Below, in pieces: positions 3,690-35,190 of a stretch of 64,000 nucleotides of DNA. Each line of letters starts with the position of its first letter. Position 1 is the stretch's first letter. Under the pieces are notes generated by a model. The model worked only from the letters and a program-made list of their open reading frames with translations, did not search any database and was not told where the DNA came from. A program made the translations under genes and the position numbers. This stretch comes from Candidatus Atribacteria bacterium (GTDB lineage Bacteria > Atribacterota > Phoenicimicrobiia > Phoenicimicrobiales > Stramentimicrobiaceae), in contig JAGYIZ010000002.1 of NCBI GenBank assembly GCA_018402425.1, forward strand, positions 1 to 64,000, in the 5' to 3' direction.

Positions 3690-6600
3690 TTAAAAAGAGA
3701 TACCTGTTTGGAAATAAAAGCGGAATTGGGAAGATTCAGTTATGGGTTTTCCTACTCCGAGAGTAATATTAAAAGGACTGTTGTGTGCAGAGTTAAATTT
3801 GAAAATTAACTCTGCACCGACAGATGCATTTATTTTATGATGGAAACTATCAAACTTTTCTTCCAGGCATGACCTGCATCCAGGAATAGGGAGCCGGAAA
3901 TTCTTTCTAAAAAGATAGAAGCCCAGTCAAAGCCAACTTTTTCTTCAACTGTTTTAATGGGAAAGCGATATTCCAAACTGCTACAGAATAGATTTTTACC
4001 GTTAAAAGAAAAGGAAGAAAAACCTCTCAATGGAAAAGAGCTGTTATTAATAGAATTCAGTTTAGTGTTGTTTATATTTCCGCCAAGATGAAACTGTTCT
4101 TTTTCATTTAAGCTTTTTGATGTAGCCCCAACAACCAAACGAAGTGCCATAACTTGATTTTGACCGGAAAGGGGGAAATATTTTCTACCATCAAAGAGTA
4201 TCTTGCTAAAGGTTAAATCACTACCCAGTATTTTATTGGCATGTTGATAGCTTAAAGAAAAAGAAGAGCCGGTTTCAGGACTGATAGAAGACTGATAGCT
4301 TTCTGTATCATTATAGCTATACCTGAGAACAAGGGAGTTTATCTTTCTAAAAAAGCTGTCTGTGTTATCATTATCTTCTACCTTGAAACTATATAAATCA
4401 TTTTGGAATCCCAGGGAAATATTCTCATTAAAATAACGGGCAGAGTCCTGTTGAGAAGTGTAACCTTCCCGGGGGAAGTTTATTTTAGCCTGAAATCTAG
4501 AGTTAGTGAATTCCGGGTCGAAAAAATTATTTATCTGTCTATCTTCCAGCAATGTTTCACCCTGCCAGGAAAATGAAAACACCGGTTTATGTGCATAATT
4601 GATAAATTGAATATCGTAATAGAGGGAAGGATTCATGATACCCCAGGCCATTTTGAAGGGGAGGTTATAAAATTTTAAATAGTCTTGTGCTAAGCTGGAG
4701 AAACCAAGATATAGATCATTTGAAGTAAAGGCAAAATAAGGAGTCCAGTAAGTTGGTACTATGCTATCCCAGGGAGAATAATCTGTAGTTTGTGACAGGG
4801 GACGGTCCTTGATACAGGGGACGGTTCTCTGTTTTTCAACAAACAGAGAACCGTCCCCTGTATCATGATGAATATCCGATGATTCCCATAACAATTCTTC
4901 CGTTCTTGATAAATGTAATTCATAACCTGAAGAATGGTATTGAATGAAAGCCAATTCTTCTCCGTCAGGTGAAATTGCCGGTTCAAAAGCTCCCGTAAGA
5001 ACATTAGTCAATCTGAATAACTGCTCATTTTCTACATTATAGGCATATAGATTAAAGATTCCGCTTCGGTCTGAAGAAAAGAAAAGATATTGTCCATCTG
5101 GTGACCAATTGGGGCTGATATCTGTAAACTTGTCCCGTGTAATAGTCTTAGTAGATTGAATTTGGTTATTCTTATCAAGTTCTATGATATAAATATCCTG
5201 ATAACCATTTTGCCATAAGGAGAATGCTATTTGATTGCCACTGGGGGACCAGACCGGTTGGGAGATCTGTGTACCATCACTAAAATCAGTTAGATAGGTG
5301 ATATTTTCAAAAGATATTAATCCTGTTTTAGAAGAATTACTTTCAATTTGACTAACAGTTTTTTTATTAAAATTATCAAGAAATTTTTGTTCAATAGAGA
5401 AAAGAACCAGATTGTTATTGCCGGCATCGTTAAGAACAGCTATGACTTTATTTTGAGAATGATGTGGATGGCAGCTGGGGTCTTTTATTCTCATTCCCTC
5501 AGAGACTCTTATTTGTTTACCATTTTCCAGTTGATATAAAAAAAGGTCATGATATTGATAATATTGCTGATATTTGGATAGCTTGGTATAGAGAAGGTAT
5601 TTTTTATCTGGTGATAAGGTATATGAAGTTCCATGACCGCTAGTCCTATTAATAAGAATATTTTCATCTTTACTGTCAGGGTCATATTCACGAATAGTTG
5701 GATATAATTCTGTATTACTTACTTTGTAAAGCAGAGAAGCTGTGTTGCTGTCCGGCCTTGACAGCCATAATGGGTCATCAACCCAGTATTGGTGTTTAGT
5801 TAGTTGTTCTGATTGGGTAAGTTCACTGAATTGATATACTTCTTCTGCTTGATGTTGGTAGGATTCATACTGTTCATCCTGCCAGTTTTCATAGAGCCTG
5901 TCCTGATTAATACCGAGTGCCTTTTTTATGGCCCAATTCATTCCCAAAAAAGGATAGGCAGAAAATATTTCACTAATGTCAATGAGTTTATCTTCACCAT
6001 ACTTTTGAACAATATAATGAATTATAGATTGTCCGTAAATATATGGTAGGTTGCCACCTGGCCAGGATGTGAGATAAGAACCAGCCAAAAGTTCTAAATT
6101 TTTGGGCTGATTTTCTAAAAAATCTGAACGAAGGTACATGTCATACCTGGAATCTTTTGCACGACCCCCGGTACTCCATTTGCTTTCATTGTAAATAGCC
6201 AATCCTTCGATAGCCCACATTGGCTGTAATGCATTAGGAGCAATTATTTGACCTAAAAAGAAACGTAAAAAGGTTGTTCCTTTCCTGGTCATATCAAAAT
6301 GGGCTAAATGGGTATATTCATGAGTTATTAGAATCTTTAACCAGTTTTCAAATTTTGTATCAAAGCTTTTAAATCCCGGTGCAGTAAGATTTATGCGGAT
6401 AGAGCGATGTGGTAATGCCGAGGCAAATCCATAGACATAATCACTAAAGTCCTCCAGGATAATGGCAATTTTGTGATTTTCTTTAAACGGCTCGTCAAAA
6501 TATGGAGTTATTTGATGATAGGTTTCTTCGGCTATTTCGGCTACATGAATAGCAATTTGCTGGTACTCGAAAGATGTATGCACAGGACTTTCCCTGGGAA

Positions 6601-6736
6601 AAATAACTGAGAAATTCAGGCTTTCCAGGACCTGCCAGTCAAGAGACGGGTCATATAGTTTTGCCTGTGCTGGTGTAACACAAAACATGCTTAAGACAAT
6701 GGAAACAAATATTAAAGAAAAAATAAAAAATATTTT
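3690..6736 (-). CDS. Surface protein: HExxH peptidase-like domain, TolB-type beta-propeller, BamA/D15-like beta-barrel (frameshifted at both ends)
   Basis: The longest open frame (3830-6688, 952 residues) holds three parts. Residues about 20-280 are a metallopeptidase-like domain with HEYTH (H123, E124, H127) and a downstream 'WAIEGLAIYNE' Glu, a gluzincin pattern. Residues about 300-640 contain PD40 beta-propeller blades ('VWSPSGNQIAFS', 'NWSPDGQYLFFSSD', 'AISPDGEELAF'). Residues about 660-952 are a beta-barrel like the surface-antigen/BamA family. The frame upstream of the first ATG stays open to 6736 and encodes a hydrophobic run ending in 'TPAQA', a signal peptide, but has no start codon. 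At the other end a shift near 3846 would continue the barrel to a stop at 3690 with a final 'RFYFQTGISF', the terminal Phe typical of outer-membrane proteins. Both ends therefore look like single-base frameshifts. A palindromic repeat is inserted in frame near residues 608-626. Confidence 0.75.
4792..4865. repeat. Perfect 25-bp palindromic repeat (ggggacggttctctg family) inside a coding region
   Basis: Positions 4810-4834 and 4841-4865 are exact reverse complements (25 bp arms, core GGGGACGGTTCTCTG) around a 6-base loop. A partial direct copy (tgacaggggacggtcc) precedes it at 4792-4807. It sits in frame within the surface-protein gene and adds about 20-25 residues there. Related hairpins or arms occur at 32123-32165 and near 35072. 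I infer a mobile palindromic element of the REP/MITE kind. Confidence 0.85.
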
Positions 6737-6896
6737 TTATGATTTTTGCAAAATTGAAAATTTAGAAGGCACAACCTCCCTGATTACAGTTTTACAATTA
6801 TTATAACTTGTTTTGCAAAACCTTACAACAAAAATAAATAAATTATAGATATATCTTGGAAACTATAATCATATTCAGGTATAATAAAAATTAATT

Positions 6897-32122: not shown

Positions 32123-32165
32123 AGGGATGGTTCTCGTTTTTTTAAAAAACAGAGAACCATCCCCT
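32123..32165. terminator. Hairpin of the gggaYggttctc repeat family after the PKD gene
   Basis: 'gggatggttctcgttttttt' and 'aaaaaacagagaaccatccc' pair almost perfectly, with one base missing in the left arm. It is a relative of the 4810-4865 palindrome (gggacggttctctg). It lies 27 bp after the lipoprotein stop and could end transcription, although the T run is inside the stem. Confidence 0.55.
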
Positions 32166-35062: not shown

Positions 35063-35190
35063 AATAATATATTGTCCCAGGGATGGTTCTTTTGACATAA
35101 AAATAATTTAATAGAAGGTAATAAATCCTGAAATAGGTAAAAAGAAAGTCCCCTGTATGCTTTCTTTGTTTATTTTGGAAAGAATATTAT

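Follow-up and report, generated by a model that had tools for sequence, protein, structure and literature searches.

In this study, which was based on a 64,000-nt stretch of Candidatus Atribacteria DNA (positions 1 to 64,000 of contig JAGYIZ010000002.1; hereafter the window) and on its comparison with related genomes, we found that a REPIN is translated in frame inside a surface-protein gene and that a second REPIN occupies the same site, in the same frame, in a sister genus. This REPIN probably belongs to a family that is mobilised by a transposase of the RAYT/TIRYT type, and would have entered the linker of the host protein before the two genera (g1 and g4) split, been tolerated there and later been re-seeded. 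The relevant features of the window are as follows:

3830..6688, minus strand: host gene, a surface protein of 952 codons with a Peptidase_MA-like domain, a PD40 propeller and a C-terminal beta-rich (barrel-like) domain
4790..4864, minus strand: REP-derived coding stretch of 25 codons, DTGDGSLFVEKQRTVPCIKDRPLSQ; also 25 codons in the sister genus
4795..4809, plus strand: truncated half-REP of the GTGACAGGGGACGGTCC type that adjoins the REPIN and shares its frame with the REPIN right arm of the sister genus
4810..4834, plus strand: REP arm 1 of the REPIN, TGATACAGGGGACGGTTCTCTGTTT; a near-identical copy stands beside the 5' remnant of a RAYT gene on contig C97 of the same genome
4835..4840: 6-nt spacer between the arms, the hairpin loop of the whole REPIN
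4841..4865, minus strand: second, inverted arm of the REPIN (REP arm 2), with 100% complementarity to the first
32124..32163: intergenic REPIN of this family, decayed, both of whose arms contain GGGATGGTTCT
35073..35097, plus strand: single REP-like unit, TGTCCCAGGGATGGTTCTTTTGACA, with a weak fold

The first-pass annotation of the window had described a perfect 25-bp palindrome that lies in frame in a surface-protein gene, which was confirmed by our analysis: two inverted 25-nt units of a short palindromic repeat, which also occurs dispersed elsewhere, form one hairpin at 4810-4865 and are translated through within the open reading frame at 3830-6688(-). The RNA fold of 4790-4870 was -49.6 kcal/mol (z = -9.9), and perfect hairpin arms did not exceed 12 nt in five Markov simulations. 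The second-longest perfect hairpin within the window has arms of only 13 nt, which speaks against a chance palindrome. A fragmented MAG and a frameshifted gene might be expected of an assembly artefact, but in an independent MAG, from another genus, this site is likewise occupied by a REPIN, and both chance and artefact can be regarded as excluded for practical purposes. Over 26 nt, there is no difference between the TGATACAGGGGACGGTTCTCTGTTTG of arm 2 and the REP that neighbours the RAYT remnant on contig C97. The half-REP at 4795-4809, which differs slightly from the arms, lay within the coordinates given in the first-pass annotation and was absent from its text. Two relatives of the palindrome had also been proposed. 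The one at 32123 proved to be a real, decayed REPIN with 12-nt perfect arms (z = -7.0), while the other, near 35072, consists of one REP-like unit, which has a GGGATGGTTCT loop and whose own fold is not significant (z = +0.5).

The host protein is of the outer-membrane type and carries the REPIN in a flexible linker. A Pfam search of its reading frame returned a PD40 propeller match and a weak match of the Peptidase_MA type. The earlier view that the element adds a peptide at the junction of the propeller and the barrel was supported both by the alignment of the orthologues and by an AlphaFold model, in which residues 609-646 were placed, at low confidence, in a coil that separates the strands of the propeller from the beta-rich domain that follows (mean pLDDT 55.6, low overall). 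The frame of the gene is broken near codon 944, at 3830-3900 of the window, and the end of the barrel goes on in another frame, a break that had been missed previously; it could mean that the window copy is a pseudogene, or it could stem from an error in the assembly. The orthologue in genome G003, which represents the sister genus, is intact and open over 1029 codons. At 6688-6760 of the window, there is no canonical start codon ahead of the signal-peptide-like stretch of the gene. Among the named genomes, an alignment query returned 13 loci related to the host protein, nearly all of them in Atribacterota and with named relatives from Candidatus Atribacterota, and a single-protein query of the named genomes found none. 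In the f2 genomes G010, G011, G013, G015, G017, G018, G019, G020, G021 and G022, a different, longer RAYT with an open frame of about 290-346 aa is located directly upstream of the host-gene orthologue on the same strand.

A comparison of the 16 orthologues that span the propeller/barrel linker revealed the REP peptide in only one of them, G003, which belongs to a different genus of the same family (65% identity). Its REPIN has the same site, frame and 25-codon length as that of the window; the arms are perfect over 26 nt, the loop, of 21 nt, differs, and the fold is -51.4 kcal/mol. The linkers of the 15 other orthologues are unrelated in sequence and longer (38-72 aa compared with 35-36 aa in G003 and the window genome, G000). 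Because these linkers are unrelated and the REP peptide is confined to the sister genus, with no occurrence in more distant species, the insertion is derived rather than native. Since the linkers of the relatives are also longer, the event either replaced a linker or shortened one by deletion, and an empty site is not demonstrable; none of the linker-spanning orthologues has a clean one. The claim that the element interrupts the gene without breaking the frame thus stands as far as the in-frame read-through is concerned, in a gene whose relatives are without the element (RPE-like behaviour), with the caveats that a clean empty site is lacking and that the gene copy is frameshifted further on.

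G000 and G003 are sisters, with a support of 100/99 even after the linker was removed. The alternative that two independent REPIN insertions occurred at one hot spot in g1 and g4 could account for arms that are identical although the gene is synonymously saturated, as well as for the wholly different loops. We consider it unlikely, as it would need two insertions in sister genera to agree in position to within 1-2 codons, in frame, in the 25-codon length and in the shortened residual linker. When the reading frame and the distance to the YSPWDS anchor are considered, the right arm of the G003 REPIN aligns with the outer half-REP of the window and not with the inner right arm, which suggests that a REPIN was present ancestrally and that its inner part was later renewed in g1.

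The pattern of divergence at the site is opposite to that in the rest of the gene. Over the whole gene, G000 and G003 differ by 0.71 at synonymous and 0.21 at non-synonymous sites, with a third-position identity of 0.49, whereas the values within the insert are 0.27 for synonymous and 0.35 for replacement differences. The left arm is identical at 21 of 21 nt. As the arms are identical although synonymous sites in the gene are saturated, it is the DNA and not the peptide that is conserved here, and the identity of the arms was probably kept through re-seeding by active REPs. The retention of the frame and the length in both genera could also be explained if the added peptide itself was selected as a new functional linker. 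This is highly improbable given the reversed order of synonymous and replacement differences and the middle third of the peptide, which differs wholly between the genera.

The description of the palindrome as a dispersed REP-type element was borne out across the order. There are ten occurrences of GGGGACGGTTC in the window's 2.13 Mb MAG, and the REP core was found in all 24 genomes of the order at 1-31 copies each, compared with 0-2 for the reversed-pattern control. In the rest of the phylum, there were 0-3 cores per genome, which, like the controls, is at or near chance. Among 227 distinct REP windows, stems of at least 6 bp were formed by 116, compared with a mean of 27.5 and a maximum of 39 in the shuffles, and the flanks of the core pair and co-vary (z = 10-13.7 for positions 3-6 of the stem). 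Each REP thus forms a hairpin in which compensatory changes accompany the variation of the stem around the loop GGGACGGTTCT; the constancy of the loop in this set is partly due to searching with the loop, and an independent check is provided by the RAYT genes, which were collected through Pfam. By inspection, no constant tetranucleotide was seen beside the stems of the listed REPs, whereas GTAG REPs are defined by GTAG or GTGG at the 5' foot of the hairpin. The CGTC motif lies inside the 11-nt loop, while CGTC REPs are defined by an unpaired CGTC at one end, an 8-9 bp stem and a 4-5 nt loop (PMC3733652). Neither the GTAG nor the CGTC definition fits the repeat. An Rfam search returned only sub-threshold hairpin families, and in the literature covered, no description of this core was found. 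The viral contigs hold only three REP copies, of one stem type; on the viral-collection contig L326 (9000-9100), REP-like units GGAACAAGGGGACGGTTCTCTCCGTTCC recur at 39-bp spacing. Truncated 5' half-REPs are arranged head-to-tail ahead of a full REP at L227, L174, L165, L170, L172 and L228, with three TGATACAAGGGAC units at L227. We also considered that REPs insert after the GGGGAC of older REPs, as partial 5' copies lie upstream at 14 of 225 sites, but the junction in the window differs and this rule was not adopted.

The search for a REP-associated transposase in the genome, which had been suggested as a check, revealed a family that is flanked by the same REPs as those of the palindrome. 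Upstream of each of the 18 RAYT (Y1 transposase, PF01797) genes examined in the size class of 256-281 aa, one of which is now disrupted, there is a REP with the GGGACGGT core, and an inverted REP is also present downstream in 16 of them; no REP accompanies 15 of the 16 other Y1 genes. The window genome itself has two intact REP-flanked RAYTs, on contigs C1 and C66. The distances between the RAYTs correlate with those between the REP stems (Mantel r 0.54, p 5e-5), which is also expected from simple co-inheritance. The RAYT proteins match the NCBIfam model REP_Tyr_transpos at or just under its cut-off. One of three proteins has a match to HTH_11, which is sub-threshold; TnpA-REP subclass 2.1 is defined by a C-terminal HTH (Bac_DnaA_C, HTH_23 or HTH_28) behind the Y1 core. 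In Acetoanaerobium noterae, a homologous transposase is flanked by inverted ATTAGGGACGGTTCTTTTTGA units, and therefore the pairing of REP and transposase is not confined to Atribacterota; a relative from Sporomusa has GGGGTCAGGC inverted repeats. Some RAYT proteins (L121, L124, L131 and L133) end in REP-encoded residues (EPSP), with the REP overlapping the stop codon.

We surveyed where 177 REP elements lie in genomes of the family and of most of its sister family: 107 lie outside open reading frames of at least 60 aa, 35 in short open reading frames, 18 at gene ends, ten at gene starts and seven in gene interiors. Five of these seven are single-core matches, in pyruvate:ferredoxin oxidoreductase (L223, L239, L252) and at L168 and L192, which we rejected as REPs since they reflect chance or conserved codons. 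Another (L255, G013:C76) is at the junction of two frames, where a membrane-protein frame runs into a Memo-like frame and one open frame passes through both. The seventh is the window gene. The first-pass annotation had seen in the palindrome an element able to enter coding DNA in frame. With a single clear interior case among 177 elements, no special capacity for such entry is evident, and the window REPIN is best seen as one of the few insertions, of an already known type, that were tolerated and survived; it does not point to a machine for making linkers.

An intergenic REPIN served for comparison. Between the gene of an RRM protein and purC, a REPIN was found at the orthologous place in eight genomes of both families (L332-L340). 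Among its seven distinct sequences, pairing is kept in 96.8% of cells and ten pairs are changed on both sides; none of 500 shuffles reached this value, and sliding the partners gave 0-3. REPINs of this family can thus persist as hairpins over family-level divergence, by selection or by palindrome correction. In G011, an ordinary terminator-like hairpin follows the RRM gene and the REPIN lies further on. These doubly changed pairs, together with the very stable folds in both genera at the in-gene site, would also suit a hairpin that is kept as an RNA element within the coding region, i.e., a pause, an attenuator or an mRNA stabiliser. However, the in-gene site is coding, the other orthologues manage without a hairpin, and self-correction of the palindrome at the replication fork could also maintain the pairing. 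We regard such a role as unlikely.

The preferred explanation is that of an ancestral, tolerated and re-seeded REPIN. The REP units would be mobilised in trans by a Y1 (HuH) single-strand transposase of the RAYT/TIRYT type that is encoded elsewhere in the genome. A single ancestral copy would have entered the disordered linker before g1 and g4 split, and would have been retained as its length kept the frame, its core is open in all reading frames and a peptide of almost any kind can be accommodated in the linker. REPs from the same population would later have overwritten the site or nested into it, which would leave fresh identical arms, different loops and an extra half-REP. In G003, no other full TGATACAG-type REP was found and the intact RAYT has a different stem type, and thus a donor for the re-seeding was not seen there.

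The case that is placed here, in one pair of sister genera, is that of a RAYT-linked REPIN retained in a protein gene amid saturated synonymous divergence, and such surroundings allow a force that conserves DNA to be told from selection on the peptide. More broadly, and tentatively, as we hold it to be slightly less probable than not, the family may represent a class of REPs with a fixed apical loop (GGGGACGGTTCT) and with stems that diversify, in a compensated manner, together with the RAYT of each. If this is true, TIRYT-like Y1 enzymes, which were reported without REP structures, would gain a genuine REP partner, and long-lived REPIN sites would form in genes and at terminator positions, where they would be overwritten again and again by later copies. 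A TIRYT-like transposase family that is paired with a self-complementary REP of changing stem and unchanged loop would also offer a testable specificity code.

Among the known systems, the TIRYT/TIRtron elements, in which inverted repeats with GGGGWSAS flank a transposase gene (Di Nocera et al. 2013, PMC3733652), resemble the present system in the HuH/Y1 transposase (about 270 aa, with a C-terminus that is HTH-like, tentatively so here), the flanking inverted repeats with GGGG-A-C, and the occurrence of the repeats as singles, inverted dimers and clusters. TIRYT corresponds to subclass 2.1 of Quentin et al. (2018, PMC6006769), next to which no REP-like structures were found. In contrast to the GGGGWSAS repeats, those described here read GGGGACGG(T/C)TC or close variants, with GGGGAC in common and then GG instead of AS, and have a self-complementary variable stem and a constant loop. 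In the published text covered, intragenic copies are reported for the GTAG and CGTC repeats and not for the TIR families. The GTAG REPs, REPINs and RAYTs (Bertels and Rainey 2011, PMC3116915; Nunvar 2010) are similar in that inverted doublets form a hairpin and the repeats are dispersed, RAYT-flanking and mostly intergenic, but here there is no GTAG tetranucleotide at the stem foot and the constant part is the loop. As in the Rickettsia palindromic elements and the intragenic CGTC and GTAG REPs (PMC3733652, PMC10969869), an in-frame palindrome adds 20-30 residues to a protein gene, in presumably tolerant loops. Those of Rickettsia and the CGTC systems have many intragenic copies, and no transposase is linked to CGTC, whereas here one gene and a linked transposase family are involved, and CGTC is inside the loop and not an unpaired end tag. 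The tnpA-REP genes of subclass 2.4 (Quentin et al. 2018, PMC6006769) also have an in-frame REP in the coding region, but their host gene is the transposase, while here it is an unrelated surface-protein gene. In-frame insertions of palindromic elements and REPs have therefore already been published, and what is new is a member that is linked to a TIRYT-like transposase.
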